A stretch of 64,000 nt of DNA. Origin: Tubulanus polymorphus (Eukaryota > Nemertea > Palaeonemertea > Tubulaniformes > Tubulanidae). Below the pieces are notes generated by a model. The model worked only from the letters and a program-made list of their open reading frames with translations, made no database searches and was not told the DNA's origin. This document shows positions 19,018-64,000 of the stretch, piece after piece (position 1 is the stretch's first letter; each line of letters opens with the position of its first letter). The position numbers and the translations under genes are program-made. The stretch is from contig NC_134026.1 of the NCBI RefSeq assembly GCF_964204645.1, positions 8,629,450 to 8,693,449 of the forward strand, read 5' to 3'.

Positions 19018-20030
19018 ATGTTTCAGAACAACCACACTACAAGCAGTAGCGTATTGACGACATTTCAACCCAACATGTGTCAAAGGATTAAAACTCGCCC
19101 TATTAACCGGTTTAACCTAGTCAGCATTTCAACGTATTTAGGCTGTTATCTACCGGCGTCAGCACTGGTTATAACATTCAACGCATTCACGTTGATAGTT
19201 CTAAAACGATTTAAATCTGAAAATTATTTTCTCATAAAAGTTCTCGCTATTAACGATCTTTTGTTCATGATCACCACGTTCATTCTTTACGCACTGAGAT
19301 CTGTCTATATCTACGTCGTTTTGGGAGATATTGTGTTTCGCAGGAATGACTGGCATTTTGGTTGGATTTTTATCTCAGTTGCCATGCCGTTTTTCTACAT
19401 ATTTCATATGACGCGTAACTGGTGCACTGTACTGCTCAGTCTGGAGCGGTTAGTCGTCGTATTGTTCCCAATAAAATCTCGTAAAATACCCAAAAAGAAT
19501 ATATCAGCATGGTTAATCGCATTCATTTCACTTCTTAGTTTTTGCGGGCATTTCATTCAATTTCTACCCGACTCTGGTCTTAGATTTATGAACTGTCCCG
19601 AACGTTGGCCTTATATTATGATTCGCGCAAAGAGATATCGCTACTGGCGTGGTTGGTTTAACTATACGAAATGGCATGGCGTATCTGAGCTATTTCTATT
19701 CTTTTATCTTAGTGTCACGTTCCCGATTTGCTTTTTAATTTTCATCAATTCCATTCTTATTTCGGCGACATTCCGTCGTCGGGTTACTCGACGTTCGGAT
19801 CTCGGTGTTACTGATGATGAATCGTCTAGAAGGGAAATGAGAGTTTTTAGTTTTATCGACCGTTTTAGTCGAATAAAATTTATGCCCATATTCAAGTATC
19901 AAAGACTAATCGGCTTAGCATTTTCTATCATCGATTCGTCAGTAAACTTTATCGTGTATTGCACAACGAATGGAAATTCAGAAAAGTAGCTATTGATATT
20001 CTAAACTTTTAAACGAAAAAGAACCTTCTA
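19018..20030 (+). pseudogene. Rhodopsin-like GPCR pseudogene (TM6 deleted, late frameshift)
   Basis: The single-exon frame from ATG 19018 to the stop at 19987-19989 encodes 323 residues with clear TM1-TM5. These include FNAFTLIVLKRF after TM1, the LAINDLLF motif of TM2 (Asp present), SLERLVVVLFP at the TM3 end (ERL in place of DRY), and a TM7-like SSVNFIVYC (NPxxY region). Between the basic third intracellular loop and TM7 no hydrophobic TM6 and no CWxP motif are found in any frame, so a deletion is likely. Right after VYC the reading frame shifts: the +1 frame restores a plausible WKFRKVAIDILNF tail ending at about 20011. Both defects point to a decayed receptor of the class of lineage-specific single-exon orphan receptors. 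The intact relative at 33521 has a similar layout. A function for a six-TM product cannot be excluded. Confidence 0.75.
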
Positions 20031-30231: not shown

Positions 30232-31939
30232 TTTCAATATAGAACTTTTCATTTCTGGCTGAATTTATCGTAGCAGGGGCGGATCCAGGGGGATGGGTAG
30301 ACAGTATTGGAAGGAAATTTAAGGGCACCTTTCTGATCTTAGGACACACCCAGTATCCAGGTCAATGCGAGCGCCGAAGGCGCGAAGTCCTTAGATGGGG
30401 GTCTGGGGTCATTTTGAAAATATGGTACCATTTAAAGGCTTTTAGAGGGCTTCTAGAGGCTAGCAGAGCAATCCAGAATAAACGAATTCGAGACAAGATT
30501 TCAACAGATGCGGATAAAAAATGAAGCTGGCGAACCCATGAAAGAATGGTTGTCCCCAACTTCGCCTAGTGCCCCTATAATCTTTAAAAGTGCCCCTTAA
30601 CAATTATACAGAATACGGCTAAGTGCCCCTTCATTGTTAACAATCGGCAAAAATTGCCTCGTCTTCATATTTATCCTTATGTCGTGTGCCATCTTCCAAA
30701 CCAAAAGTGCCCCTAAAATTTTAAAAATTAGGTAAAAAAGTGCCCTTTTCTTCAACATTTTCCGCGTATAGTGCCCTCTTCTAAAGTACGAGTGCCCCTT
30801 TAGCCCTCCCTGAAAATGCAAGGACAAGGTGCCCTCATCTAAAGCATGAGTGCCCCTTGCAAAAGGAAAGTGCCCTTTTTAATTTAACATGATTAAATGC
30901 TTTACAAATATGATTATCTCTCCTCACTTTCTCGGCAGCAGTATATACCGATTAATTTTATAATTATGCCCGGATTACGGACACGGAATTAGCGGTTGCT
31001 GAAATAATGCCGTCAAAAATATTGCCGGTGAAATTTCGAAGGGCACTTAAAAATTCTAGACCGTATTGGGCAATACGGCTAATACGGTCTGGATCCGCCC
31101 CTGCGTAGGATTTCTCTCGTTGTGAATCTGTATATATTTCTATGTACTTTCTTTTATTAGGTTGCTCGGTCGATGGCTTTTCGATGACAATGTTGGGATT
31201 CATTTCGATATATTCGACGATGGGGATCGCGCTGGATCGCTGCTTCGCTATCAAAACTTCATATAAACCTATGAAAGGAAAACTATCCGTCTCCAGGCAG
31301 ATGGCTGTTGTATTTGCTGTTTGGTCAGCGGGGTTTATCTGGGCTATGCCCCCGCTAGTAGGCATTTGCGGTTACGCGAGTGAGGTTACACCCGTTTCCT
31401 GTTCATATGATTTTCTGAACAAGGAGAAATCGTGCGTCTCGTTTATAATATCCGCTGTCGTCGCGGGATTCATCATTCCACTTACAGCTACGTTATTTAC
31501 GTTCCATAAAGTATACAGCGCGGTCGTCGAGTATCAAGATCGAATTCGCGAAACCGACTTCAAGAAAGGGCTTCGTTCTAAAGGGCGCTGGAAACGCCGT
31601 AAGATGGCGCTCGCCACTGATTTAGCCCGAATGTCTATAGCCTCAATGGCGTTGTTCTGTGCATCGTGGTTGCCCTACACGATCTTCGCTCTTGTCACCA
31701 TGTTTTACCACTCGCCATCTTCATTTTCATGGCTCTCGGCTCTACCGCCGATTCTCGCTAAGATATCCACCATACTGCATCCGGTAATGTTCGGACTGCT
31801 CGACCATAAAGTTCGGAAACGCATATACTCGATTTTCTGCATGAAAAGAGGCCCCGCATCCATTTATAACTCAACAGAAGAGCAATACGTTTTTGCAAGT
31901 TTGGATGTCAGTAGATCCGAGGATTCCTCATTGCAATAG
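24592..31939 (+). CDS. Divergent opsin, three exons
   Basis: Exons: 24592-24791, 28282-28415, 31161-31939; GT-AG, phases 2 and 1, 370 residues. The N-terminus has N-glycosylation sites at N9 and N24. TM1 has GN at 57-58, TM2 NLAGCDLA with D86, and the TM3 start Cys113 pairs with Cys192. TM4 has W166 and TM6 SWLPY at 280-284. TM7 holds the retinal Schiff-base lysine K312 in LAKIST, the residue that separates opsins from other GPCRs. Glu186 lies six residues before Cys192, matching the E181 counterion site. Asp116, three after Cys113, falls at the vertebrate E113 counterion position. Atypical features: DRC (137-139) for DRY, HPVMF (318-322) for NPxxY, and DHK where r-opsins have HPK and c-opsins NKQ. 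These place it outside classic r- and c-opsins; it may be a xenopsin or a tetraopsin-like lineage, which I cannot settle by eye. Introns of 3.5 and 2.7 kb hold a Crypton remnant and a hAT-like element. An AATAAA at 32398 could be the poly(A) signal. Confidence 0.88.
25396..26819 (-). pseudogene. Broken Crypton-type tyrosine recombinase (DUF3504-like) in opsin intron 1
   Basis: Read on the - strand from 26819, the product starts with a DUF3504/ZMYM-type N-terminal segment (NTQRTTNWAKKIWTDWSNER and a following IRKQDGDKYPPKTLYSIVAG stretch). It continues across a TAG at about 26345 (ERVL, stop, EKGLLG, probably TGG to TAG) into the recombinase core. A frameshift near 25975-25995 separates this from the last part, which contains HFTGHSGK, EQLIMQRTGHRS and the likely nucleophile Tyr in VRAYKK. 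The usual HxxR arginine appears as Lys. DUF3504 proteins derive from Crypton tyrosine recombinases. With one stop, one frameshift and a substituted catalytic residue it should be inactive. Its antisense position within an intron is typical of a transposon insertion. Confidence 0.75.
26940..27001. repeat. Short palindrome next to the Crypton remnant
   Basis: CTATTGCACGTTGGAAATC pairs with GATTTCCACCGTGCAATAA around a GCGCTAACGCGCC loop. The CGTGCAATAAC part also occurs at 25181 on the far side of the recombinase, so the motif flanks it. Whether it belongs to the element is unclear. Confidence 0.45.
27533..27664. mobile_element. Palindromic MITE, family 1, copy 2 (opsin intron 1)
   Basis: The ends are TGGGCCCGGTTCAATAGTC and CATGGAACCGGCCCAG; the interior has AGACCAGCCTTAAG-type repeats as in copies at 14615 and 43476. 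Confidence 0.65.
29040..29360. repeat. Dispersed repeat, family 2, copy 2 (opsin intron 2)
   Basis: It shares GGAGTCGATGTACATAACAT, the GGTAAATTTTGATAATTTGA block and GACTGGTTGCCGGTCAATTC with 23255-23480, and continues into a TATTCAAATTCACATAACTT region that matches 62150-62170. Confidence 0.6.
30143..30229. repeat. (AT)n microsatellite in opsin intron 2
   Basis: An uninterrupted TA dinucleotide run of about 87 bp. It creates a spurious Tyr-Ile ORF on the - strand. The length is likely polymorphic and collapse-prone in assemblies. Confidence 0.95.
30269..31108. mobile_element. hAT-like non-autonomous element ending 52 bp before opsin exon 3
   Basis: Ends are CAGGGGCGGATCCAG (from 30274) and CTGGATCCGCCCCTG (to 31103), perfect 15-bp inverted repeats. 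Directly outside both lie copies of CGTAG (30269-30273, 31104-31108), an apparent 5-bp target duplication. The interior repeats GTGCCCCTT/AAGTGCCC motifs and has no transposase. Fragments with the same end are at 35848 and 47289. Confidence 0.78.
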
Positions 31940-33503: not shown

Positions 33504-33520
33504 TCTGATCCCCAAGAATC

Positions 33521-34468
33521 ATGAATTCTTCTGAGATGCAAATTGGTCGAGCTTACAGCAGTAACATGGTTCTCATGTCTGTGGTAAACAAGTCTGGAAT
33601 GTATCGCACTGTGACACTGGTAATTCTATCAGTCGTGTTCCTGTTGGGAGTCTTCGGAAATTCAGCTACGTTCTTGATAATGACAAGTCGCAAATTTCGC
33701 AGGTTATCTTACGCTAATTATCTCATAGTTTTATCTCTCAGTGATTCTATATACTGCATTAGTATAACTTTGATGCCTGTTTTACAGTTTTTTCTCTTGC
33801 ATTTAAGAACAGGTCCTGTATTGTTGATGAATTCACTGATCAGTTGTCAAATATATTATTTTGTAGTGACGCTGGCCGGCTGTAATAGTTCATGGTTTAT
33901 AGTAGCTATGTCTTTAGAACGTGCGGCAGTTGTGCTCTTCCCGTTCACATCTCGTTTGATATGTACACCGAGATTCGCTAGATTCACTATATTGATAATT
34001 ACTACAGTGAATGTACTGTTTCTATATCTTGCAGCGGCTTTGTTGATGCACTTCGACTTTTTGTTTGGTTGTTATTTTCAATTAGTTTACCAAATAATAT
34101 ATTTCATCGTAATTGTTGTCTACGTTTACGTTATACCGTTAACTTTGATCATTTTGTCAAATTCTGTAATAATATTTCAGTTATTCAGAGGTTCAAAAAT
34201 GGTTTCGTCTGATCAGAAAACTACAAAATCAAAACGTACAACAATAATGCTTGTAACAGTTTCACTCGCATTCGCAATATTCACACTTCCGACCACTGTT
34301 ACTTCATTGTTACCAATCTCACCAGAAAAGAGAGAATTTCTATATGACATTTTCAATCAGCTCTTTATGTGTAACTATGTGGTAAATTTCTATATATATC
34401 TTTTGCTGGGACGAGAAATCCGTGAATATTTCTTTATGAAAATCCGCTGTAGAAATTCAGTCAAATAA
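33521..34468 (+). CDS. Intact single-exon rhodopsin-like GPCR, orphan
   Basis: This is a seven-helix plasma-membrane receptor of 315 residues with one uninterrupted frame. N-glycosylation candidates occur in the N-terminus (NSS at 2-4, NKS). TM1 contains GVFGNS, TM2 LSLSDS (Asp2.50 kept), TM3 ends SLERAAVVLFP, so ERA replaces DRY. Cysteines at the top of TM3 (LISCQIYY) and in the second extracellular loop (FGCYF) can form the conserved disulphide. TM6 follows a Lys-rich loop (TTKSKRTT) but lacks the CWxP signature (FTLPTTV), and TM7 reads VVNFYIYLLLG where NPxxY is usual. Short loops and absence of introns match lineage-expanded invertebrate orphan receptors, perhaps peptide or chemosensory. 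The ligand is unknown. The decayed receptor at 19018 shares the ER-VVLFP motif and the VNF-Y variant of TM7, so the two are probably members of one family. Confidence 0.88.
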   Translation: MNSSEMQIGRAYSSNMVLMSVVNKSGMYRTVTLVILSVVFLLGVFGNSATFLIMTSRKFRRLSYANYLIVLSLSDSIYCISITLMPVLQFFLLHLRTGPVLLMNSLISCQIYYFVVTLAGCNSSWFIVAMSLERAAVVLFPFTSRLICTPRFARFTILIITTVNVLFLYLAAALLMHFDFLFGCYFQLVYQIIYFIVIVVYVYVIPLTLIILSNSVIIFQLFRGSKMVSSDQKTTKSKRTTIMLVTVSLAFAIFTLPTTVTSLLPISPEKREFLYDIFNQLFMCNYVVNFYIYLLLGREIREYFFMKIRCRNSVK

Positions 34469-38058: not shown

Positions 38059-41000
38059 ATGGGCTTCAAAACATGTGGGCCCAACGAGGCCATGGTTATA
38101 TCAGGTATTTAATCTGGTTGGGTCCGTCTTCAAGAGTCACCACAGAACCGAAAGCAGGAGCTACATTTTTAGGCCTAGCCTACTCATTTTTTCTGATCAA
38201 TCCAATGCAAATTACAATTTTATTTATCAGAATATGACGTGCGTAGTTACTGACCTGTTTTTTCACCGACACCGATCCAATCGAAAATTTAAAACAAACA
38301 AATCATTTGTAGTTTATAATATGACTGCTTGTACAATCACAGGTGTTTGAAAACATTCTCGCTAGCCTTCGGTTCCAGTTCACTCGGAATTCAAATCTTA
38401 ACACAAAACCGTGGTAGTGGGTCCAGAATATTTTTCAAGAACTGTCGTCCTAATCAAATGGTAGTTTCATTAAAAGTTGACGCTGACCGAAATTGAGCGA
38501 ATCTTAAGTACCATGATTATTTTCTTGTTTCAGGCTGTTGCTATCGACGCCCCTCTATAATTCCAGGCGGTCGAGCGTTTCTGTGGCCTTGTATACAAAG
38601 GCTTCAAAGGTACAACACTATAAATATCGACCAAATCAGCGGCGTATCGTCGGCGCACTTATATTTGAACGAGAAATCGGTCTCAAAACTGTTTTCAAAA
38701 TGAGAAACATTATTTCTTACATAGTTTTTCCTCATAAAAGTTGATTTTTTCCCTCAATTGAATTAAGCTAGACATGATAACGACGAGATAAGTAGTACTT
38801 TATAGGTTAACTATTTTATTGGAGCTTTCGCTACTAATGTCTATTTCAACTTCACTTGAGAGCACATCAGGTGGCCTAGCTCAGTCAGTTTTGGTGGTAC
38901 ATACCTGATAGAATTCTTATTGGGACCAGAAAGGACTGGCAGTTGACCTGAAGTTGAAATAGACATTAGCGTATAGTAGCTTCAGGTGAGTCAAGCTTGT
39001 GCGTCTAGTAAGTTATCTATAAAGTAGGCCTACTACTTCAACACCCGGTGAATATTTCTCCTCTACAAATCTTTTCCCAAATGATTTAGACAGTCACTGG
39101 TCTATGGAAACTTAAATTTTTTACCTGGTTTTACTACCTTGACGATGTGATTCTGGTAATTTGCAGGATATCTCTGAACACCATGACATTATCAATTGAG
39201 TCGACTCACGTCTACACACAACTAGGTGTACCGGTTAATGTGATGGGCGTTGCGCAAGTGAAAATCTCATCGACGAATTCCGAAATGTTACACGCCGCCT
39301 GTCAACAATTTCTCGGAAAATCCGAAAAGGAAATACGTCAAATTGCGAAGGAAACGCTTGAAGGTCATCAGCGAGCGATCATGGCTCATATGACTGTTGA
39401 GGTCAGTTCGCAAACTGGAATTCTATTTATAGAAATTAGAAAACAACAAAGAAAAATTATATCAATTGATTTCAAAAAATGAAAATACAAATATACTTTT
39501 TGTTTCCAAGATTATTAACAGCGATAATTATATGAAATTGTCTCTTTCAGGAAATCTATCAAGACCGTAAGAAATTTTCTCAAGCAGTTTTCGAAGTGGC
39601 GTCATCGGATTTGATCAATATGGGAATCAGTGTCGTTAGTTACACGTTGAGAGACATCAGTGATTCTGGCGTGAGTATACCCTAAACCGGACATCAGGGT
39701 ACCTACGACTCCTCGGTTCCTTAAAACCTCTGAACCAGGGTCCCTACAACTCCTTGGTTCCTTAAAACCTCTGAACCAGGGTTCCTACGACTCCTTGGTT
39801 CCTTAAAACTCGTTCTAAAGGGTCCCTACGACTCCTCGGTTCCTTAAAACCTCTGAACCAGGGTTCCTACGACTCCTTGGTTCCTTAAAACTCGTTCTTA
39901 AGGGTCCCTACGACTCCTTGGTTCCTTAAAACTCGTTCTTAAGGGTCCCTACGACTCCTTGGTTCCTTAAAACCTCTAAACCAGGGTCCCTGCGACTCCT
40001 TGGTTCCTTAAAACTCGTTCTAAAGGGTTCCTACGACTCCTTGGTTCCTTAAAACTCCTGCTTACCACAAAATGCTTTTAAAGCTGCTTGAAACTCCTTT
40101 AATTTGAGCAAAATGCCATAAACTCGTTTGAAACTTCTGCAATAAACCAGTGCAATGATACTGCAGTAGGCTAGCTACAAAGGCTCCATTTTATATTATG
40201 CTACAAGTGAAGTGTATGTATGTTCACAAAAAACTTTCGGACTATTTGCATGTGGAAAACGACTAAAAAAACATAGACATGGGTAATATATGATCTTAGC
40301 CTCTCGTAGTTATTTCCAAATCCTTATGTGTTAATTTAGGCTGCCTACAATAATCGACTCAATCAGCAGCTTGCCAGTTCAGGCTGGATAGAAGATTTTT
40401 TACACAAACTGTAGCCGAAATTTCCAATTGTGTACTTCGATTCAAACAAACATCTTTCTAATTCCAACTGACCATCCACTTCAATTTCCATTTTCTAAAT
40501 CAATTCCCCTGTATATCATTCCTGGCAAGTATGGAAAGCTTGTAAGGGACACCAGGATCCAGTTCCACAGTTCTGAGTTAGAGTTAACTCTTTGAGTTAA
40601 AATCTATTCATTTTCAATGAGTTAACCCTAAGCCAAATCTTAACTCACAACTGTGTAACTGGGTCCATAGCATGAAAAAATATGAGGGACGATCATCCCT
40701 GTTTCAAAATAAAAAATGGTCTAAAAAATGTTAGCATCCATTTGAAAATACGCAGCTATGGTATTTGAGTGGGTATTAGAATAGTCTTACGACAAGATGA
40801 TGAGCCTTCCTTTTGTCAGCATGTTTAAAGTCTCCTCTTTCAAAGCTACTCTTTCACATTGCAATGTCTTTGAGTAATCATGTTTTGCTATCCAATGACA
40901 CTAAAAATGCTGGCATTGCTTAATTTATTTCATAAGAAATATATGAATAAATATATAATAAGAAAAATATAAGATATGTATCTTATATCTATCCAATGAC

Positions 41001-48785: not shown

Positions 48786-49674
48786 TATATATCTATATAT
48801 AATTGATGCAATATGTGTTTTATATGATGTTTCTTACGACGAGTCTTCCACCGTTGGTAAAACTGGGTATGCACGCTGGATTTTATACTATACATACAAA
48901 TCATTGTCTTCTCTATTTTCCGATCGATATACCACTGTATACTGTACATGTGAAATAGAATGATCTATTATATATATATATATATGTTTTGGATATGGTT
49001 AATTTGCATTCATAATAATAAAATATATTTCTCGCATGTTATCGACTAAAAAATCGTTTTAGTTATTTTGTTCGAGTATTTGCGCGTCGGTCCTGTGTGG
49101 CGTGATCTATGTTTGGTGATGCTTCAGTTTCGAACGTCTTTTCATAAGAGGGACTCCGTAATACATATACAGTTAGGCTAGAAAATAATTCATACCTTGT
49201 TTCTCCGCTCTGCTGTGCTTAAAAGTTGACCCGGTCGGCCGCCTACCTACCCTGTACAATAACTTTTAAAAATCATGATCAATCTTACCACTTACCACAA
49301 CAGACCTAGAAATAAGCTGATTACAAATTTTATTATATTTTACAAAAATGACCTGGCCGCTGCGGAGAAACACGGTATCATTTTTGTTTAGCCTCAACCT
49401 CGCCTAACTCGACAAAATCGGTCCGAGTTAAGGATAGGAAGATACGTTGGGAAGTCTGGAGAAATTATTTCATTTTTTAGTCGAAAGTCTCATGTTGGCC
49501 ATTTCCAAGTAAGGCGAGGTATACTGCATACTATCAAATATCTAACCTTAGATTTTAACGTTAACTTCATTAACATAACTCTCGAGTCACAAAAGGACAG
49601 TAGAGCAGGTTTATACAGTATTAGTGATAAAAAATAACAGAAAGACGATTAAACAAGTATGAATTTTAATACAT

Positions 49675-50092
49675 CGGGGTTTCCAGCGGTCCTTCAAAGT
49701 CCTTCTTTTGGAAAAAGTTTGGACAAACATCATCTTTTTGATTCTATGTCCTTCCTTTTGATTAAAGTCCTTCCAAATTTAATTCTATTTTTCGCGCGCA
49801 ATTTTGTCGCGAATTCGACTGTTGAAGTATTTTATTACTCAGGCCTGGTAATTCAATTGTCAGTAAGATTGAATATACAGGAAAGTGTTAAGGAAATTAT
49901 CCTGGAATGTATGACTGGTCTACATGACTAGTATTCCGGTGAAGGCATTGCGATAATGCTCCCTTATGGGCCCTCATTTTACTGGAAAGAACTTCTTTCC
50001 GAGTCCAAAAGTCCCTCCTTTTGGGTCTTAAATTGCCGAAAAAGTCCTTCTTAGTACTTCTGTTTACCCTGGCCTTACCACTGGAAACCCTG
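49675..50092. mobile_element. hAT-like element private to unit A
   Basis: The ends CGGGGTTTCCAGCGGTCCTT and GGCCTTACCACTGGAAACCCTG are inverted repeats. The interior repeats AGTCCTTC(C)TTTTGG motifs. Unit B reads straight from AAACAAGTATGACTT into ACATGAAAACATAGATATT at the same place, which is an empty site. Confidence 0.72.
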
Positions 50093-50994
50093 AACATATA
50101 AACATAGATATTAATGTAAAAAACAGAAGCTTCATGATAAATGAACACAATTTATAGGGTTTGGCGCGACAGTTATTTGTCGTCATCAGGCAATTTAAAG
50201 TTACTGGGATTGGAGTGGAATTCGATCCGTACACTTTGTACGATATTTTGAAAAATATGTCCGTACTAACGGAAAATAGTATTCATCGTCGACAGTGTTA
50301 TATGCTTGATGTAATATTTCTATCGACTTTGTCCATTTTCAGGGTTACTGGTACGGAATTTGGTAGTAAACAGAATGCGTGCATATGCAAATGAGGCATA
50401 TTTGTTTGAAATCGGTTTGTAAAAACCGGTTGCTATCGGTTTATTGTGTCCCAAACTGGTTTGCTATAGGTTTAACAAATACGACAAAACGAAAAGTCGG
50501 TTTGAGTCAGCTACCGGAGGAAATTTGCTTATTCCGCCGTATTGGAAAAGTAGGTTTGTTGTTGCAAACCGCTAGCCGCCGAACGGTTCCGTTTTACGAA
50601 CCGTTTTATTAATAGCTTTACGCCTAAACAAAGACGCCAGTTTATCACAACCAGTATGTAAACCGGTATGAACACAGACGATTTGCCTAAAAACCCGAAG
50701 CGATTTGTGCAGACCGATTTCAAACAAATGCGCCTCATGTCACAACGGCAAATAGTGGAATAAAAATTCCCCCGTCGATGAAATATCGCTCTTGAATTCA
50801 GCCAATTCAAACGACGTCTATATGATTTTATTCTAATTCATTTAGCCGCCGATAAGAACGGAAATAAGCGCGATTACATACCCGAGCACATCCGAGTAAA
50901 CATTAACAGCCATAAATGAGTATTTCTAAAAATATATACCACACATATTCACGAGAGCACGTGCCCCTTCCCACGAGATTGCACTAAAGCAGAA

Positions 50995-53900
50995 ATGTTT
51001 CGGGTCGCGTTTCTGGGATTGTTTTTGTCATCCATTTCGGCTGCTCCTGTACAGGTATGGACGGGAACGTAATTTTCTTGTTTTTTTATTACTCGAATTT
51101 CTTTCGGATGATATCTGTGATTTGGTAATTTTTTACTGACATGGTGCCCTGAAAAATTGTGATCAATGGCCACACTTGTCTAGGGGGAAACAGATTTGAA
51201 GACTTCATTCAAAATGTTCAAATGTTCAAGATCGTTGATTATGACAAAAATAGCCTTTCTATATTGAATCAATTCTCGTTCACTTTTTGAATGACACGCC
51301 TGAGCCCACTTCAGTCTTGATCCACCCTGTAGTGTGTGGAGCAACTGTACGACATGTCCCTTGTAATTTCGATTCCTAAAAGGATGCTAAGTTTCTGATA
51401 TGACCAAACAATTCGTGATAATGATCTGAATGAAGGTCATAGGTTTTCAGTAGTTAGTAAGTAGCGTTCAGTTCTGAAATATAGATTTTACCGTTATTCA
51501 AATTGCAGTTAAGATATATACATTTGTTCTAGATCGCGCATGACAATGACGATGTATGGTTGAATTCAGGTAAAAAAAAACTGTATATATATACGAAAAG
51601 TAACTTATCGCCTTGTTTTGGGGTGAAATTGGTATCGAATTTGCTTAAAAAGTCTACTTGTTTCTATGGGTTCGAATCCAGTGTCATGCGATTTCTTTTG
51701 TTCTGGTTTGTTTCTTATAGTGGCTGATTCGGGCCATAACGTAAAATGCAGGATATGCAAATGAGGGCGCCAGAACGCCAAAACGAAAAAAATCGTCTAG
51801 TTTTTTTTTTTAAATCCATTTTGGTGCGCCGTAATCAAATGATATCCCGTTTTGGAGCGCCAAAACAGAATAGAAGTCCATTTTGGTGCGCCGTAAACCA
51901 ATGATGCCCGTTTTGGAGCGCCAAAACAGAATAGAAATCCATTTCGGTGCACCAAAAGAATTTTGGAGTTTTGGCGCGGTTATTTTCATTTTGGCGCCTT
52001 CGCCAAAAAAAACATTCGACCACAGTAAAGTTATTCTATATATGCAAATATTGCAAGTATATGCAAATCAAACTCAAGGTCAACGCGCCAAATTGAAAAA
52101 CAATTTTACTGGTTGAATGATGTTTGACTTGCCCGAGGCGCCAAAACAAAAGTTCGTTTTGGTGGGGTGCCAACACGGATTTTCTAAAGGAAATTCCACG
52201 ATTTTTTGGTGTTCAGGCAGTCTGGCGCCCTAATTTGCATATCGGGAATTTTACGTTATGCCCCGAATCAGCGACCATTAGTTTCTCCACCTTAAGCGAG
52301 AAAAGAAACTTACTAATGCCCTAAGTGGTTCTCTAAGTAGACTGAAACACCTGAAGATAACCACATTAATCGTAAATATGAGGAAACGGGATATCGATTT
52401 TAAGTTCAATATTCATAATATCATCTACAGGTTTCTATCAAGGGGATATCGATATTGATGAGGTAATTTTTAAATTGCTTAAAAATACTTATCGAAACCC
52501 AATAACATCTGGTCTCAATCAGTGACCGAATTCTCAACGTAAACATTATTACAGTATCGCAATGCGATGGGGACGAAAAACAAACTGTGGAAGGACGGAA
52601 TCGTACCCTACATCATAGAAGATGAATTGATAGGTCTGTATTTAATTCCCACAAAAAATGGAGTACGTGTATCTTTACGTATCAAAAAAGCTATCTTCTA
52701 AAGCCCGCCGCATACGGCTTAACAAAAAAAACGTGAAAAAAACATTTTTTTTTCAGTGCTGCGTGTGGCGGGCTTAAGTCAGCGTTCTTGAATTTTATCA
52801 AGTTTATTGAAAAAGACCACCCAGGTCCTTAATTTCACTACAATAAATTTCAATACAATACAATACATTTGAAAAATATGATTATTACACTTTCTGATAT
52901 ATATCGTCGTTTTATTGCTTTTATAGAAAGTTATTCGAACTTTAAGATTCAAGCTGCCATGGATATACTATCAGAATACGTCAACAAGGCTGGTCGATGC
53001 ATTACATTCAAAAAGCGCACCAACGAAGATGCGTATATCTCGTTTTATAAAGGCAACGGGTAACTGCGTGTTCCGGTCATATTATGAATGAGTCAGACAC
53101 TTTCCAAAAATTTGAGTCGTGAATTTACAGAATGTATATTTTGTGAGCTGTGCAGTAAGAAGCCCGCATGACTCGTTTGACGTATGACAAACTAGGGACC
53201 GATCACGTCATAACCAGCTGTGTTTATCTCTGATTATATCTGCTATCTCATTGGCCCGTGTGTACGCAATTTTTCTTAAGATATTTGAACTGCTACATGA
53301 AATAATTAGTTTCAATTAGCGGTACAAAACAAAACGATCGTGATCTTGTTTAATTCACCAATTTTGGATTTTTGGTTTCTGGGTGAATTTCGATTGAAGA
53401 TCATCTCTAAAGAAAATATCAAGAATTTTCGATTATTTTCCTTATCGTAGAAAATAGGGATTGACCCTGTAATTTATTTGATTGGTAGATTTCGTTTGAT
53501 TTGTTTTTATTTAGTGTCCCTTAGATACACACCACACCTGCCGGGATCGATATGGGGGTTTGATTTTGAAATCGGAAATCGTAGTAAAGTTACAGTTGTG
53601 TGATCGGCGGTCAGAATACATAATCTTTTGTTTAAAAATCGTTGTACACAATTGGGAAATTCGGTTCCGGTTCATTCAACATTCAAATAATCTTCCAACC
53701 AGCCTGAAACAGCGTGACTGATTGAAGTTTACTTTGTTGGCTGCATAAATCAATTCATCGAGATTTTGGAAATAACTATTACAAGGTTTATTTTTAACAT
53801 GGACGTTTGAACTATAAGGATGGTGCACTATTCACCAGGGGCCGGATTTAGACTGCTATTATCTTTAAACCCATGCGCCCCGGGTTAAGGTTGATACCAG

Positions 53901-55671
53901 TCTAATAAGAAGCCGGCCGCAGATCGTGGGTGGAAGTCCTTGGTTTAAAATCAGTTTCGCCTATTTTCAGTTGTCATTCACCGGTTGGATCAAACGGCAG
54001 GGTACAACGTGTTTCGATCGGTGAAGGCTGCGCACAAATCAAAACAGTTCAACACGAAATTCTACATTCGCTCGGTTTTTGGCACGAACAATCCCGACCC
54101 GACAGAGATCAGTATGTTACCATACACAGGGAGAATATCGAACCAGGTAAAAAAAAAATGCTTTTACTTGCTTCTTTTCATGGTGGCTAATTCGGGCAAT
54201 ATCCTAGAATTCCTGATATGAAAATGAGGGCACCAGAAGGCCAGACGAAAACTTTTGGCGGCACCCAAAAAACGCACTTCTTTTTGGTGCGCCGCTAAAA
54301 CGGAATTCCGTTTTGGTGACCTCGCCAAAATGACGAAAAACGTCAGATTTTCTCAATAAATCACTTTTTAGAAATCCATTTTGGACGGATTTTTTCGGCG
54401 TTTTGAACAAACATTCAAACACGGCAAAATTATTTTTCAACTTGGCACGTTGACCATTAATTCAATTTGCATGCATAAAAGTGCTCGCAAAGAATAATTG
54501 AACCGCGGTTGAATGTTTGAAAAACGAAAAACGGGCACCAAAACCGATCTTTTTGAGAAAATCCGTTTTTGTTTTGGCGTTCTGGCGTTCATTTTCATAT
54601 CAAATTACGCTATAGCCTGAATCCACCACCTTGACTTCGATTGTATAAGTGAGACTAATCGTTCCACAGTCCTTGGTGAAATTCGATTCTAGATTTAAAA
54701 CTATTCGAATAAAAAACCTAAAAATCTAAACTTCAAAATATGATAAACCAAATTCACCCGGCACCTGGTGGAACTGTGTCCTGATGAATCCTTATTTTTT
54801 CTGACATCAAGCTAATAGGTATAATTTCAACATCCAGCCGGATATCGATACGCTCGGAACTCCGTATTCCTACTACTCGATCATGCACTACAAGGGAAAC
54901 GCGTTTTCGATGAACGGTAAACCGACTATTACTGCTAAAGACCCGGAGATAAAGTATCTGGGCGCTGACATGCTTTCACCTTTTTACATCGACGTAGAAC
55001 GAATCAGAATACTGTACGGATGTCCCAAGAATACACGTAATTATAACCATTATCTGTATATTTCTATGATTTTTCTTTGTTTTTATATCAAATAAATCTT
55101 TGTTAGATAATAAAGATAACAAACAGTGTATACATGACGTACCAAGTGCTAAACAACACATTTAAGGCATGTTTATTCGTCATTTTACGGTCAGCCTTTG
55201 TACATAATTAAAGATAAATATTCATTAATGAAAATAATGGGTGAAATCGCGCAATTCGCCATTTGATGCATGAGAAATATCGTTGAATGACGATTTTCTT
55301 GGATGTCTGCTGAAAAAAATCGCTTGAAAGAGAGATTATAGATATGCCCTACGAGCCCACTTCGATATGCTTCCCTCCTAATTCGATTTTCATATCAAGG
55401 TTGAAATGTAACTCATTTTTGAACTGGGCATTTTCTCATATCTACTTAATAGAATTTAATTTTGATTCATCCTTATCGCCGGTTCATTTTTCGTGGTATC
55501 TAATGAATATAGTAACACAGTTTGATTTCAGAGAGAACCAAACGAGTAACCCCAAAACCCGATTGCGTGGACCTGGACGACGATTGCGCATTGTGGGTCT
55601 CTATGGGTCAATGCATACACAATCGTTTGGGTATGGCTATCAATTGCAGAAAATCTTGTAATGTATGTTGA
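50995..55671 (+). CDS. Secreted astacin metalloprotease with C-terminal ShK domain, copy A (intact)
   Basis: This is a zinc endopeptidase of the astacin (M12A) family, secreted as a zymogen. Exons: 50995-51054, 51533-51569, 52431-52462, 52555-52633, 52927-53059, 53971-54146, 54812-55036, 55532-55671; 882 nt, 293 residues, all phases agree. Residues 1-16 form the signal peptide. FYQGDI (34-39) is the propeptide latch with Asp38 expected to bind the zinc. The mature enzyme probably starts near Asn46. HEILHSLGFWH (142-152) gives zinc ligands His142, His146, His152 and catalytic Glu143; SIMHY (195-199) is the Met-turn with Met197 and Tyr199. Six cysteines (259, 266, 275, 286, 290, 293) form a ShK domain that ends two nucleotides before an AATAAA overlapping the stop. 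Retaining intron 7 would instead give a stop and an AATAAA (55092), i.e. a form without ShK. The exon 7 acceptor is 54812, because 54819 breaks the frame. The likely role is in extracellular matrix or digestion; the substrate is unknown. Confidence 0.92.
51721..52277. mobile_element. MITE, family 5, intron 2 of astacin A
   Basis: TGGCTGATTCGGGCCATAAC at the left is mirrored by GTTATGCCCCGAATCAGCGACCA at the right, with ATATGCAAAT just inside both ends. The interior is rich in TTTTGGCGC/GCGCCAAAA. The orthologous insertion is at 58111-58733 in unit B, so it predates the duplication. Confidence 0.75.
54184..54629. mobile_element. MITE, family 5, intron 6 of astacin A
   Basis: TGGTGGCTAATTCGGGCAAT and TAGCCTGAATCCACCACC are inverted ends and the GGCGC-rich interior is as in intron 2. 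The counterpart in unit B is 60884-61260. Confidence 0.7.
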
Positions 55672-55676
55672 ATAAA
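55671..55676 (+). terminator. Poly(A) signal overlapping the astacin A stop codon
   Basis: The last A of the TGA stop (55669-55671) is the first A of AATAAA. Cleavage would leave a 3'UTR of about 15-30 nt. The arrangement is the same in unit B (62516-62521). Confidence 0.6.
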
Positions 55677-57390
55677 CATCATGAAATGAAAAATATTGAT
55701 TTCGTGTTTATTAGTTGTTCCGATATTCGGACCATATCGAGATAGATATTGTTTTTCCCCTTCTTGTTGGTTTTCGAACTTGTTCGGGAATTGAATCATT
55801 TTTAACTTAAATAGGGATTGTCCATCTGTTACATATTTGATTGGTCGATTTGATTTGATTTGTTTTGATTTGGTGTACAAACCACCGCACCTATCCAGAG
55901 GCGAAACGGGGGTTTTAATTGAAATCGGAAATCGAAATACAGTGCATGTAAACGCCAAGGTAGATGAAGCACTGTGACTTGACAGGATGATTCGCCATAA
56001 GAATCACGTATTTTCAGTCATTGGAGTACGTTTTCATTATTATCATCATTATCTTTTTCTTATTCATGAAACATATTGCACATATTCTTTGGTTCTGTAT
56101 TATGTGTCCTTTAGTCGTCTCTACATAAGCAAAGTGTGTCAGTCAATCCTGAAATGTGAAATGTGGATTTTGCGAGGAAATTGGGATATATTGGTTTATC
56201 GATCCATTGCAAAAAACGCGATGGAAAAATAACGATCCCAGTCAAAATATCAACATTACTCCGCTTCGATTCGTTAGTAACTAAATCAAGCGAAATATTA
56301 GTATCTAGTTAATTGTTTATGCCGTGTTAATAGTCGCGATCACGCACGTATTCCTGAAGACGACTGTTAGAATAAAGTAGAAACGTTGAATAAACTACAT
56401 TAGCTCAAGGAAACATTATCGGACTTTATTTTTTCGTCTTGATTCTGGGATATTCGTAATATTATCGTCACAACACGGATATACTGTCCACTAGAGTGGT
56501 TTGTTCAATATTCTGCGGATTTCATCGAAAGTGAAATGTCGCATGATGCGACGGAAATCGAATTTCTAACCTGAAATTTTTAACGCTAACTTCATCAACT
56601 GACTCGAGTCACAAAACGATAATATGTTCATACAAGTGATCAAAATAGAAGAACCAAAAAGCAGAACGACGAGTGACGAGAAAACAAGTATGACTTACAT
56701 GAAAACATAGATATTCACGTCAAAAATCAGAAGCTCCATGATAAATGAATACAATTTATAGGGTTTGCCCGTGTTATTTGTCGTTATCCGACAATTCAAA
56801 GTTTCTGGGATTGGGGTAGAATTAGATTCGTATTAGAATTATAAGCCGATTAATATCGGTTAAGTGTGTCGCAAACCGGTTTGCCCTAGTTTTATCAAAA
56901 CGAAAAGTCGGTTTGAATCAGCTACCGGAGAAAATTTGCTTATCCCGCCATATTGGAAAAATCGGTTGTTGTTACAAACCGCTCGCCGCCGAACGGTTCC
57001 GTTTTACGAACCGTTTTATTAATAGCTTTACGCCTAAACAAAGACGCCGATTTATCAAAACCGGTTTGTTAACCGGTATGAAAACAGACTATTTCCCTAA
57101 AAAACCGTAGCGATTTGTGCAGACCGACTTCGAACAACTGCGCCTCCTGTCACAACAGCAAATTGTAGAATGAAAATTCCCCCGTCGATGAAATATCGCT
57201 CTTAATTTAAGCCAATTCAAACGACGTCTATGTATTATTAGCCGCCGATAAGAACGGAAATAAGCGCGATTACATAACGGAGCACATCCGAGTAAACATT
57301 AACAGCCATAAATGGGCATTTCTAAAAAGATAGATACCACACTTATTCAGCAGAGCACGTGTCCGTTCCCACAAGATTACCAAAGCAGAA
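55677..57390. other. Intergenic DNA between the astacin copies
   Basis: Non-coding and homologous to the flanks of the other unit: 55677-56500 matches 62522-63430, and 56565-57390 matches 49545-50994 apart from the hAT-like insertion. The segment AACGGTTCCGTTTTACGAAC followed by CGTTTTATTAATAGCTTTAC near 56994 is almost unchanged between units (50582 in A), as is the last 100 bp before each ATG, which probably contains the promoter. Confidence 0.55.
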
Positions 57391-60300
57391 ATGTTTCGGG
57401 TCACGTTTCTGGGATTGTTTTTGTCATCAATTTCGGCTGCTCCTGTACAGGTATGGACGGGAACGTAATTTTCTTGTTTGTTTTTTTATTACTCCAATTG
57501 CTTTCAGATGAAATCGGTTATTTGGTAATTTTTGACTGACAAGGTGCCCTGGAAAATTGCGATCACGGATTAATGCCCGGACTTGTCAAGGCGAACAGAT
57601 TTGAAGACCTCATTTAAAATGTTCAAGGTTTGATCGTTGATTATGACAACACTGCAACGCTGAGGAGCTGACTCAGGGTTTTAATTAAGTTGTTCAAAAT
57701 TAACAATTCAATATTGAATCAATTCTCGTTCACTTTTGGGTGACACGCCGGAGCCATCTTCAGGAATTGATCCACCCTGTAGTGTGTGAACTGTATGACA
57801 TGTCCCTTATAATTTCAATTCCTAAGTTCTGACATGATCAAATAATGCGTGATAATGAACTGTGAAGATCTGTTCAGTTAGCGAGCAGCTCTGAAATATA
57901 GATGTTAACGTTATTCAAATTGGACATTTGTTTTAGATCGCACATGACAATGACGATGTATGGTTGAATTCAGGTAAAAAAAATTATAGCTAAATCATAA
58001 GACAATTAACATATCACCTTTTGGGATGAAGGTGTAATCTAATACAAAAATTTTACATTTTACATTCTGGGTTCGAATACGGTGGCATGCGATTTCTTCT
58101 GTTCTTATGATGGCTGATTCGGGTTATAACGTAAAATGCCTGATATGCAAATGAAGGTGCCAGGAACGCCAAAACAAAAAAAAACAAATCGTCTAATTTT
58201 CTTTAAAAATCCATTTTGGTGCGTCGGAAACAACTGATATCCCGTTTTGGAGCGCCAGAACAGAATAGAAATACATTTCGGCGTGCTAAAAGATTTTTTG
58301 GCGTTTAGGTGCGCCAAAAAACAATCATTCGACCACAGTAAAGTTATTCTATATATGCAAATCACAGGGCTCGTATTGATGTTTGGGGTGAACTGTAGCT
58401 TAGATCATCCAGTATCCCTGGTACTAAAAAAGAACCAGGGATACTGGATGATCTAAGCTACAGTTCACCCCCAAACATCAAATACGAGCCCATGTGATGC
58501 AAACATTGCAAATATATGCAAATCAAACTCAGGGTCAACGCGCCAAATTGAAAAATAATTTTACTGGTTGAATAATGTTTGACTTGGTGGTGGCGCCAAA
58601 ACAAAATAATGTTCGTTTAGGCGGTGTGCCAAAGCGGATTTTTAAAAGGAAATCCGACGATCTTTTGGTGTTCAGGCGTTCTGGCACCCTTTGAATATCA
58701 GGAATTTATCGTTATGCCCTGAATCATCGACCATCAATTTCTCCACCTTAAGCGAGAAAAGAAACCTACTAAAAATGCCTTAGTGGTTCTCTAAGTGGGC
58801 TGAACTATCTGAAAATAACCACATCGAAATATGAGGAAATGGGATATCGATTTTTAAAGTTCAATATTCATTATATCATTTACAGGTTTCTATCAAGGAG
58901 ACATCGATATTGATGAGGTAATCTTTAAATCGAAACCCAATATAACATATTGTGTCGATCAGTGACCGAACTCTAAACGGACACCTTTTTACAGTATCGC
59001 AATGCGATAGGGACGAAAAAGAAACTGTGGAAGGACGGAATCGTACCCTACATCATAGAAGATGAATTGATAGGTCTGTATTTAATTCCCACATAAAACG
59101 TAGTACACGGCATAACAGAAAACATCGAAAACTTTTTCAAGAGGGGAAAAACTTTTTTTTTCGGTGCCGTGTGTTGTGGGCTTTTATGTCAGCGTTCTTG
59201 AATTATATTACGTTTAAGTTTAAGTTTATTGAAATAGACGACACAAGCCCTTAATTTCATTACTATGAATTTTGATACAATACAATACATTTGGAAAATG
59301 TGATTATGTCACTTTCTAATATGTATCGTAATTCTATTGCTTTTCTAGAAAGTGGTTCGAACTTTACGATTCAAGCTGCCATGGATATACTATCAAAACA
59401 CGTCAACAAGGCTGGTCGATGCATTACATTCAAAAATCGCACCAGTGAAGATGCGTACATCTCGTTTTATAAAGGCAACGGGTAACTGCGTATTCCGGTC
59501 CTATGAATGAAAGTCAGACACATTGCAAAAACTTGAGTCGTGAATTTACAGAATGTATATTTTGTAAGCTGTATGGTATAGAGCCTAACTCAGGTCGCAC
59601 AAGATCAGACGGGTCGTACGGAATTGGGAGCCAGTCAATGATTTTTCAGTCAGGGATTTTTTACTTTAGATCGTTAAGCCGATCTATCCTCCCCCGGTAG
59701 GGATTCGAATCCGATGACATGGAGATCGCCACGGTACGAAACCCTGCCACACTAGACCGAGTGCGCAGCTACACGCGCAGCTTAGATGATGTCATTATCA
59801 TCCAATCAGATATCCCGTTTCATTTTAGCCCGGATTTTCCCATTTATAGTTATTCCGTAAAATTCACCTCAGCGATTATACAACGAGCAATCTGATTGGT
59901 GCCGCAAGTTTTCGCGCAGCAAATCTGCGCTTTTACCTGCGTACCCGGTCTACTATGGCAGGAGTTCGTGCCGTGGCTGAGTGTAGCGATACCATCCGGT
60001 TCGATGCCGAGAGAGGATGAAGCCGATCGGGCATTCTATTTCTTACGACGATCGGAACGGAACTGAGTGTACTTACGACCGATCGTAAGGTCATAGCCAA
60101 TGAACAGCGATGTACAAGTCACAAATTCATTTATTCGTCGTAAATCAAAAGTACATGATGGCGAATGAAATAGAACAAAAACAGAAAGGTTGAACAACAT
60201 AAACAATAAAGAGAAGAGACAAACAATATAATGTTATATCTAACATGACCTGATGAGTATAGCTAAAGATCCGACAAACGAGTCTTGACACGAGCGTTCT

Positions 60301-62390
60301 TAAGACCGAATCGTAGACTCTCGCGTTGTAAAAACCCGCTGTGTTTATCTCCATTTTCTGTTATCTCATCGGCGCGTATATAAAAGGCCGTCACATTTTC
60401 TAAGGATATTTGAACTGCTCGGTACAAAGTAAAACATTCAATGGTCAATATCATTTAATTCACTATCGTTAATTTCGGGTTTTTGATGAAATTCGATTAG
60501 AGATCGTTTTGACGATCAACAGATCGTTCTCAAACACACACATTTAGAATCTAAAGAATACCCAATTAGTTTTTTAACACGGGCGTATAAACTATATAGG
60601 GGCGATGCACTATTCACCAGATCATGGATGTCCACGATTTTAAATCAGTTTCGCCTATTTTCAGTTGTCATTCACCGGTTGGAGCAAACGGCAGGGTACA
60701 ACGGGTTTCGATCGGTGAAGGCTGCGCACAAATAAAAACAGTTCAACACGAAATTCTACATTCGCTCGGTTTTTGGCACGAACAATCCCGACCCGACAGA
60801 GATCAGTATGTCACCATACACAAGGAGAATATCAAACCAGGTAAATTGCTTTTACTTTCAGAGTGAGAAACACGCCGATTTCATGGTGACTGATTTAGGC
60901 CTTAACGTAAAATTCTTCATGCGCGCCAAAAGGTCATAAGATAAGAAAAACAAACTTTCCTTTTGGTGACCTACCAAAACGAAAAAAGACAAATTTTCTC
61001 AAAAAATCTCATTTTGCCCACGCTAAAACAAACATTCAACCACGGCAAAAAATTATCTTATTTTCAATTTGGCGCGTTGACTCTACATTTCATATATCTG
61101 CATAAAAGTTCCCACAAGGTATAATTTCACCGTGCTGGAATCGTTGAAAAATCGTCACCAAAACCGATATCTTTGAGAAAATTCGACGATTATTTTCATT
61201 TTGGCGTTCTGGCGACCTCTCTTGCATATCAGATTGCGTCATAGTCTGAATCAGCCATCATACGATTTCGATGTAAGTGAGATTGATCGTTCCACAATCC
61301 TCGGAAAAAAATTGATCTAGGTTTAAAACATTCGAATAAAAAACATAATCTAAACTCTAGAATAGGGATCTGATGAATCATTTTTTTCTGTCATCAAGCT
61401 TACAGGCGTAATTTCAAGATCCAGTCGAATATCGATACGCTCGGAACTCCGTATTCCTACTACTCGATCATGCACTACAAGCGAAACGCGTTTTCGATGA
61501 ACGGTAAACCGACTATTACTGCTAAAGACCCGAAGATAAAGTATCTGGGCGCCGGACCTTATCATATCGACGTAGAACGAATCCAAATACTTTACGGATG
61601 TCCCAAGAATACACGTAATTATAACTATTATCTGTATATCTATTTCTATGGTTTTTTTCGTTCTATATCAAATAAATCTTCATTAGATAAGAGAAAGATA
61701 ACAAACAGTGTATACATGAGGTACAGTGCTACATAACACATTTTAGGCATTTTTATTCATTTCTGTGACTCATTTATGGTCATCCTTCTTACATAACATC
61801 TTTAATGTAATATTCGGTGCAATAACGCAGTTTGACATTTGATGGATGAGAAATATCCCTGAATGATGATGATGATTTTCCTGAGATGTCTGTTGAAAAA
61901 TAATCAATTGAAAGAAAAATTATAGATATGCACCGAGCTTACTTCATCAAAAAAGGCCATACTAAAATGGATTTCTGTATCGTCTATAGACAGAAGAAAA
62001 TGTAAAAAAGTTTTCATCGTGCCGCTAGCCGATGCACATTTCACAACTCTTCTTATATTTTTTCATAAATTTTCATAATTATTTTGAGAGGATGACGTCA
62101 TAAATATATCTGGTTACACTAGTTGCTGATCAATTCAATCCAATTATTAATATATTCAAATTAAAAAAATCTTTATTAATCCTTAATATGATATAATCTA
62201 TATTGTAATATTCTATGATCTATCGTTGACAATATCAAACAATAAAAGTGTTAACTCTCAGGGTGTTGATAAACTTTCAAGCAAGTTTTCTTAATTAGTA
62301 TGGCCTGAATCAGCCACCAATCGCCTGTTCATTTTTCGGCATATCTAATGAACATAGTAACACAGTTTGATTTCAGAGAGAACCAAATGA
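57391..62390 (+). CDS. Astacin metalloprotease copy B, ShK domain cut off by a nonsense codon
   Basis: Exons: 57391-57450, 57937-57973, 58886-58917, 58995-59073, 59349-59481, 60665-60840, 61399-61614, 62377-62390. Phases agree and give 248 residues. Signal peptide, propeptide latch (FYQGDI), the zinc motif HEILHSLGFWH and Met-turn SIMHY are all kept, so the protease domain should be active. Exon 7 is three codons shorter than in copy A (around GAGPYHID). In exon 8 the codon that is CGA (Arg252) in copy A is TGA here (62388-62390). The following 126 nt remain in frame with all six ShK cysteine codons and end at a second TGA (62514-62516) overlapping AATAAA. It could be a truncated working enzyme, a young pseudogene, a polymorphism or a sequencing error; I favour real truncation because flanking splice sites are intact. 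Confidence 0.88.
58111..58733. mobile_element. MITE, family 5, intron 2 of astacin B
   Basis: It is the counterpart of 51721-52277, with ends TGGCTGATTCGGGTTATAAC and TATGCCCTGAATCATCGACCA. It is interrupted by the hairpin at 58361-58499. Confidence 0.72.
58361..58499. mobile_element. 139-bp near-perfect hairpin, private to unit B
   Basis: The left arm (58361-58424) runs ATCACAGGGCTCGTATTGAT onward to CCAGTATCCCTGGT. The right arm is its reverse complement with one or two single-base differences and ends CATGTGATG. The loop is about 9 nt (ACTAAAAAAG region). Unit A lacks it and reads TATATGCAAATATTGCAAGT across the site. Confidence 0.85.
59690..59795 (-). repeat. tRNA-derived SINE head, minus strand (astacin B intron 5)
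   Basis: On the - strand an A-box-like CGGTCTAGTGTGGCAGGG is followed about 40 nt later by the B box GGATTCGAATCCCTACC. The spacing suits an RNA polymerase III promoter. The surrounding 0.7-kb block (59584-60330) is absent from unit A. Confidence 0.6.
60040..60300. repeat. Interspersed repeat, second copy of the 9.1-kb family
   Basis: It contains ACTTACGACCGATCGTAAGG and a TCATAGCCAATGAACAGCGA segment, and AGTATAGCTAAAGATCCGAC near its end, matching 9105-9330 in INTS2 intron 13. Confidence 0.55.
60884..61260. mobile_element. MITE, family 5, intron 6 of astacin B
   Basis: It has diverged ends TGGTGACTGATTTAGGCCTT and CATAGTCTGAATCAGCCATCA with GCGCGCC-rich interior fragments. It is the counterpart of 54184-54629. 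Confidence 0.65.
62010..62290. repeat. Dispersed repeat, family 2, copy 3 (astacin B intron 7)
   Basis: It has TTTGAGAGGATGACGTCATA, a diverged GTTGCTGATCAATTCAATCC and TATTCAAATTAAAAAAATCT, in the same order as 29160-29290. It is absent from intron 7 of copy A. Confidence 0.5.
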
Positions 62391-62516
62391 GTAACCCCGA
62401 AACCCGACTGCGTGGACTCGGACGACGATTGCGCGTTGTGGGTCTCAATGGGTCAATGCATACACAATCGTTTGGGTATGGCTATCAATTGCAGAAAATC
62501 TTGTAATGTATGTTGA

Positions 62517-64000
62517 ATAAACATCATAATATGAAAAATATTCATTTCGTGTTTATCAGTTCACGTAGTTCCGATATTCAGACCATATCGAGATATATAT
62601 TGTTTTTTCTTCTCGTTGGTTTTTCCAACTTGTTCGGGAATTAAATCATTTGTCTAACTTAAAATAGGATTGTCCATTTTATTTATCTGATCGGCAGATT
62701 TAATTTGGTGTCCCTTACAAACCCACCACACCAACCAGGAGCGAAACGGGGGGTTAATTGAAATCGGAAATCGAAGTACGGATATAGTACTGTTGTGTGT
62801 GATCGGCGCTGGAATTTACAGATATTTTGTTTTTTGTTCATATTGAAGTAAAATTTTAGAAATTTCGGTTCCAGTTCACGTAATCGCCAAGGTAGTGGAA
62901 GCGCTCTGACTTGGCCGCCATAAGATTCACGTATTTTCAATTATAGGAGTGCGTTTTTATCAATATCATCATTGTTTACGAAACATATTGTACATTTTCT
63001 TTGGTTCTGAATTATGTGTCTTTTAGTCGTCTCTACATATGCATAGCGTGTCTGTCAATCACGAGATGTGAAATGTGGACTTAGCAAGGGAATTGGAATA
63101 TACTGGTTCATCGATCCATTGCAAAAAATGCGATGGAAAAATAATGACCCTTTGAAGATATCCCATTCAAAATATCAAAATTACTCCGTTTCGATTCGTT
63201 ATAAACTCAATCAGCGAAATGCTATAGTATAAGTAGTTACGTAAATTGAATATGCCGTGTTAACAGTGTCGACCACACGTATTCCTAAAGACGACTATTA
63301 GAATTTAGCCGAAACGTTGAAAAAACTACATTGGGTCAAGGAAGCTTTTTCGGACTTAATCTTTTCGTCATTATTGTTGGATTTTCGTAATACCATCGTA
63401 ACAGCACGGATATAGTGTCTCTTCAGTGGTGAGTAATATTATCACACGAGCTTTGTTGACCAGTGCAAACACGGGTGCCAAATAGGCTCGTGCCTGCTTA
63501 GCCCGACAAAAACGTCGGACCTGGCCCGAGCCAAATTTTAGCACTGGTCAAACTAATGCGTGGGAATTGCAACTGGTTCCGGAAGTACCTGGCCCGGGCC
63601 AAATCGTCTCCGGCTAATGATATCTAGAAGATTTCTTTTGTTAAATGATCTACGCGTGCATCCTGTCCGAATGAATTTATGTCTTATTTTTCTATCGCAC
63701 GAAGTCACTCTTAAGCAATATACGCTTTCGTTGAAACTGAAACGTTTAAATTGGCATTCGACGACGGCGTCGAGATTGCGCGAATGAAATTTTCATTTCC
63801 TCCGAGTCTGATGGAATAACAACCGTTAGTTGTAAAATCCACTGACGCGACACCGGGAGCAAAGAACTTCGTTTCCTATCGATTTGGCGCGAATCTTTCT
63901 ATTATAGATAAGATTTTAAGCGGCGTTTTTAAGTGACAAGTCGCGTCAATCTTGTTGTTTAATATTGACAGTACTCTTAGAACGCGCTCGCAGCTCGTAT
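62517..64000. other. Downstream flank of unit B and right edge
   Basis: Up to about 63435 the sequence is homologous to the unit A downstream flank. At 63465-63605 lies a second copy of the family 4 repeat also found at 44945-45215. The rest has a higher GC content and only one short unrecognised ORF (63560-63787). Confidence 0.45.

Follow-up and report, generated by a model that had tools for sequence, protein, structure and literature searches.

A tandem astacin gene pair in Tubulanus polymorphus, one copy of which has probably lost its ShK module to a single stop codon

Introduction

When a duplicated protease gene carries a stop codon between its catalytic domain and a C-terminal accessory module, has it become the gene of a shorter enzyme, is it decaying, or is the module still made? 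This question is raised by two neighbouring genes in the nemertean Tubulanus polymorphus, located in a stretch of 64,000 nucleotides (contig NC_134026.1, positions 8,629,450 to 8,693,449; hereafter the window, in whose own numbering all positions below are given). The genes belong with the astacin-ShKT proteases, in which an M12A protease domain is followed by a C-terminal ShK module, and which are described in sections of two papers from molluscs, brachiopods, cnidarians, nematodes and other groups (PMC9848320; PMC6409789). The likeness lies in the plan of the upstream gene, copy A (a hydrophobic N-terminus, a prodomain with FXGDI, an astacin domain and one C-terminal ShK), whereas the translated product of the downstream gene, copy B, is without ShK, although the DNA behind its stop codon encodes one.

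Results

Both genes were rebuilt from exon anchors and by inspection of splice sites, and the eight exons that the original prediction had assigned to each copy agreed with this reconstruction in number (8 of 8 per copy) and in position. Intron phases are equal between the copies, and GT...AG borders were found in 7 of 7 introns of copy A and 7 of 7 introns of copy B. Exon lengths are also equal apart from exon 7 (225 nt in A, 216 nt in B), and because this 9-nt difference is in frame the codon numbers are offset by three, codon 249 of B matching codon 252 of A. The frame of copy A is open for 293 codons, encoding astacin and ShK, while copy B encodes 248 residues before TGA. Each gene sits in a tandem unit of about 7 kb, the outermost collinear blastn matches being 49533-49597/56557-56619 and 55940-56512/62872-63440, and the full-length copy A begins 6.4 kb upstream of copy B. 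A search of the window with A (tblastn) revealed no third astacin copy, the remaining matches having E-values of 1.7 or worse.

49533-56556, plus strand: tandem unit 1, holding copy A; borders approximate (blastn of the left against the right part of the region)
56557-63440, plus strand: tandem unit 2, holding copy B; borders approximate (same blastn comparison)
50995-55671, plus strand: copy A, 293-residue astacin with ShK (splice sites and frame; Pfam Astacin 174 bits, ShK 31 bits)
50995-51054, 51533-51569, 52431-52462, 52555-52633, 52927-53059, 53971-54146, 54812-55036 and 55532-55671, plus strand: exons of copy A (splice sites and frame)
57391-62516, plus strand: copy B, 248 residues up to the TGA (splice sites and frame; Pfam Astacin 174.9 bits, product without ShK match)
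57391-57450, 57937-57973, 58886-58917, 58995-59073, 59349-59481, 60665-60840, 61399-61614 and 62377-62516, plus strand: exons of copy B (splice sites and frame)

Several other features were noted in the window. A repeat rich, by eye, in words like TTTTGGCGC occurs in both orientations in introns 2 and 6 of the astacin pair (51713-52281, 58103-58705 and 61156-61265). Intron 2 of B also contains a near-perfect hairpin of about 120 bases (58366-58500; arms 58382-58425 and 58431-58474, 95% complementary) which is absent from A and for which a blastn search turned up no further copy in the window. This hairpin is probably a foldback transposon (MITE), since its flanks, ATGCAAAT and ATGCAAAC, look by eye like an 8-base target duplication. 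Further away, three neighbouring frames on the minus strand (25399-26822) match Phage_integrase (just under the cut-off), DUF3504 and QRICH1, and we take them to resemble a decayed Crypton-type tyrosine-recombinase transposon. Three long open frames on the plus strand (18997-19986, 31109-31936 and 33509-34465) match 7TM receptors; two are above the Pfam 7tm_1 cut-off and the first is just below it, yet above the 7TM_GPCR_Srv cut-off, and by sequence that first frame found no match among solved structures. A tandem array with a 41-base unit and a 123-base higher-order period lies at 39695-40057, and scans of the window found no tRNAs or Rfam families.

The features around the stop codon of B are the following.

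62388-62390, plus strand: in-frame TGA, codon 249 of B; A has CGA at 55543-55545, codon 252 (reconstructed frames, codon comparison of A and B)
62391-62513, plus strand: open ShK-coding remnant with six cysteines (Pfam ShK E 5.9e-9 on this piece alone)
62390-62391, plus strand: AG, candidate in-phase 3' splice site 15 nt 3' of the main one, with exon start 62392 and the TGA left in the intron; GAG type, also in A (AG scan around exon 8)
62516-62521, plus strand: poly(A) signal AATAAA, overlapping the old stop codon, at the same place in A (55671) (sequence scan)

The TGA of B against the CGA of A was borne out by the rebuilt frames of both copies, and exon 8 of B aligns with that of A without gaps. 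B's stop codon would be a single C-to-T change, made probably after the duplication; as a mutation this is not improbable: of single changes placed at random in codons 1-251 of A, 4-5% create a stop. The description of the change as a typical CpG transition found no backing: the C of A's CGA does sit in a CpG, but the window is not depleted in CpG (o/e 1.09; TpG/CpA o/e 1.07) and bears no sign of methylation-driven decay, and CpG decay was rejected as the cause. Because the stop lies in the last exon, with no exon junction 3' of it and with the poly(A) signal in place, the RNA of B would be expected to be stable; under the exon-junction rule, nonsense-mediated decay is not expected for such a stop. 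A ShK-less form of both genes through intron retention, with AATAAA shortly 3' of exon 7 (55091 in A; 61671 in B), was considered but not built on, because 50 AATAAA occur on this strand of the window.

Behind the stop, the original account of an in-frame stretch with six ShK cysteines and mostly silent changes held. After the TGA, the frame runs uninterrupted through 126 nt (62391-62516) to the terminal TGA that A also uses, with all six cysteines retained. Over these 126 bases the copies differ at 6: four codons have changed silently, and one has two changes that exchange Leu and Ser. Pfam recognises a ShK domain in the 41 codons 3' of the TGA alone (E 5.9e-9, 36.8 bits), as it does in a 39-residue piece of A (5.2e-9). 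The product of A, with a ShK score of 31 bits (cut-off 20.9), is thus an Astacin-ShKT protein, while that of B, assuming standard decoding and the main acceptor, has no Pfam ShK match and falls outside this class. A comparison of dN/dS in exon 8 had also been called for, and for the part behind the stop it gives a ratio of 0.08 (1.5 nonsynonymous, 4.5 synonymous), below that of every earlier exon of at least 20 codons for which a ratio exists. Gene conversion was rejected as the reason for this conservation, as the identical run there (69 nt, end of exon 8) ranks second to that of exon 6 (77 nt).

Such a low ratio could point to continued translation of the stretch. B may then still make its ShK, through a second in-phase 3' splice site, stop read-through or editing, and it fits with this that the remnant differs from A by one amino acid and that two of the six AGs around the start of exon 8 in B are in phase (the main one and that 15 nt downstream). 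The acceptors of both genes (n=14), however, comprise 12 CAG/TAG, 2 AAG and no GAG, and a CAG lies 15 nt upstream of the candidate. Acceptors of the GAG type are weak. The same AG is present in A, and hence the candidate did not arise with the stop; being of GAG type and common to both copies, it was rated low. As for read-through, TGA followed by G is not known to be a strong context for it. Continued production of ShK from B is therefore considered unlikely. Even less credit is given to the idea of a switchable gene, in which the 62377 acceptor would yield the bare protease and the 62392 acceptor protease plus ShK with a linker five codons shorter, selection holding the ShK; this we regard as very improbable.

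The protease part of both copies matches Pfam Astacin over profile positions 2-189 of 189 (174.9 bits in B and 174.0 in A; cut-off 22.5). The zinc-binding and following motif, HEILHSLGFWHEQSRPDRD, is present in both copies, as are the Met-turn motif SIMHY and, behind a hydrophobic N-terminus judged by eye, FYQGDI, the aspartate switch of the prodomain. The motifs of B (HEILHSLGFWH, EQSRPDRD, SIMHY and FYQGDI) follow the definitions HEXXHXXGXXH, EXXRXDRD, SIMHY and FXGDI given in a section of PMC9848320. Seventeen matches among solved sequences were obtained for A and 17 for B, including meprins, hatching enzymes and crayfish astacin. In single-sequence scores B falls below A for meprins, for the hatching enzyme 3vtg and for Limulus astacin (92.3 vs 104.6 bits), and slightly exceeds it for crayfish astacin; the match to meprin beta ends at residue 218 in B and reaches 245 in A. 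For the C-terminal segment B scores below A with the hatching enzymes 3vtg and 3lqb and with meprin alpha (36.3 vs 41.0 bits with 3vtg), and above A with crayfish astacin 1ast (23.1 vs 21.1 bits). Exon 7 of B, with its 9-nt gap, was considered as the site of a second lesion, but this was rejected because the length of the loop there varies too in the alignments with 3vtg, 3lqb and meprin alpha: A has a longer loop than 3vtg and 3lqb, and B has a shorter one than all three, so that neither copy is plainly damaged there.

Between the two copies, the protease parts differ by 23 replaced residues and a three-residue length difference, which with two copies only are unpolarised. The counts are 26.5 nonsynonymous and 13.5 synonymous, giving a dN/dS of 0.58 with exons 5 and 7 at about 1, a value compatible both with relaxed constraint on one of the copies and with functional divergence. 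The original claim that the remaining domain stays intact thus stands for the motifs and the Pfam score, but amino-acid change is greater in the protease than in the ShK part. The contrast between the two ratios is suggestive only, with a Fisher P of 0.19 or 0.028 depending on the rounding of half counts. The product of B has a charge of +7 (pI 9.1) against -2 (pI 6.4) for codons 1-251 of A, B being nine more positive. A directional charge change was not supported by a sign-flip test over 11 hand-listed charge changes (P = 0.12), which sum to +8 instead of +9 because the aspartate in the gap was left out.

Decay of B was judged against the noncoding sequence. In the alignable parts, the copies differ by 9.5% in the 5' flank, 13-30% in introns 1-4, 6 and 7, and 16% in the 3' flank. 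The yardstick for indels was 78 gaps in 3271 aligned noncoding bases, gap counts in the diverged introns being approximate; this count excludes intron 5 (53% differences, no whole alignment) as well as the 5' flank, which has 5 gaps in 483 bases. One coding indel, in frame, was observed in 744 bases against 8.9 expected if B alone had drifted since the duplication (P = 0.0014), and no further stop occurs before the ShK, against 1.7-3.7 expected if B had been free since then (P 0.19-0.025). It is unlikely that B has been dead since the duplication. That the 126 nt behind the stop contain no indel is not very informative (1.5 expected, P 0.22). Other disabling mutations, which had been named as evidence against a functional B, were searched for and none was found besides the TGA, the start codon, seven introns and motifs being intact. 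In place of the several disabling changes and neutral-rate decay of a pseudogene, B has one stop, no frameshift and no broken splice site.

Of the pseudogene readings, only recent silencing survives the indel and stop tests. On this account the TGA would be the first visible lesion of a B only recently silenced, and by our own arithmetic the protease dN/dS of 0.58 is about the average of a constrained copy (about 0.15) and a free copy (about 1). The intact introns, start codon and motifs, a Pfam Astacin score not below that of A, and the same shortage of indels and stops speak against it, and we think it unlikely to be the case.

The age of the stop was modelled through f, the share of the post-duplication period over which B has carried it, with a neutral divergence of 0.16 and an earlier ratio (w0) of 0.15 as the base case. 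An f of 1 predicts about 9 nonsynonymous changes behind the stop, whereas at most 2 were observed; the probability of two or fewer rises from 0.006 at f = 1 through 0.08 at f = 0.5 to 0.24 at f = 0.25. At a neutral divergence of 0.10, P for f = 1 is 0.05-0.12 and a stop as old as the duplication is not clearly excluded. As far as this model of the substitutions goes, the duplication probably came before the stop, whose age is only loosely bounded. The view that the nonsense change is very young is one of several permitted answers, as the stop may have been present for up to about half of the post-duplication period at 16% divergence and for the whole of it at 10%.

A stop age of zero also fits, together with the nearly unchanged ShK remnant (6/126 bases), and this would be expected if the TGA were a segregating allele or an assembly base error in a species in which B is normally full-length. 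The window represents one sequence, with neither quality values nor reads attached. Nothing speaks directly against this account, but the change is one substitution rather than a homopolymer indel, in an exon 8 that is gapless against A. An allele or error is regarded as possible but rather improbable.

Discussion

The reading preferred here, with a probability of roughly 0.6, is that an astacin-ShK gene was duplicated in tandem and that in one paralogue, B, a single C-to-T stop in the last exon yields a bare protease. B would make a secreted zymogen composed of a signal peptide, a short prodomain with the FXGDI aspartate switch, and the protease. This predicted protease would end eight residues past its last cysteine, as a minimal astacin like that of crayfish, and may keep proteolytic activity while losing whatever binding the ShK module gives. 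Loss of function in B would be confined to the role of ShK in this protein. Since copy A would keep supplying the full-length enzyme, the loss in B could be tolerated. The proposal of a secreted protease without its ShK module is thus upheld as regards a truncation before the ShK in an otherwise functional-looking gene; the loss itself is only probable, through standard decoding. The further suggestion of neofunctionalisation by domain loss is not supported, the changes in the protease part being unpolarised between A and B. For astacin-ShKT proteins in general, a section of PMC9848320 mentions that they are expressed in barrier epithelia and in the digestive tract and may play a role in challenging hosts.

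The plan of the predicted B product is that of crayfish astacin (PDB 1AST; zymogen 3LQ0), which has a signal peptide, a short prodomain and the catalytic domain only, and B matches 3LQ0 at 1.9e-29. In a tree described in part of PMC9848320, crayfish astacin, which has no domain beyond these, clusters with astacins that carry ShKT. Bare astacins are thus already known alongside relatives with ShKT, and B would be a further, probably recent, example. It differs from crayfish astacin in that the DNA still spells out its lost module, which suggests a much more recent loss. Loss and gain of repeated domains are called frequent in evolution in a general statement in PMC6409789. Our literature search among open-licence papers found no report of ShK loss through a nonsense change.

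The observation itself is real and clear, but the truncation is an ordinary step in the evolution of duplicated genes, and the truncated B opens no new class of system. It gives a clear view of how a single step may strip a multidomain protease paralogue of an accessory module whose sequence can still be read, and the case could help to explain the origin of bare astacins inside ShKT clades.
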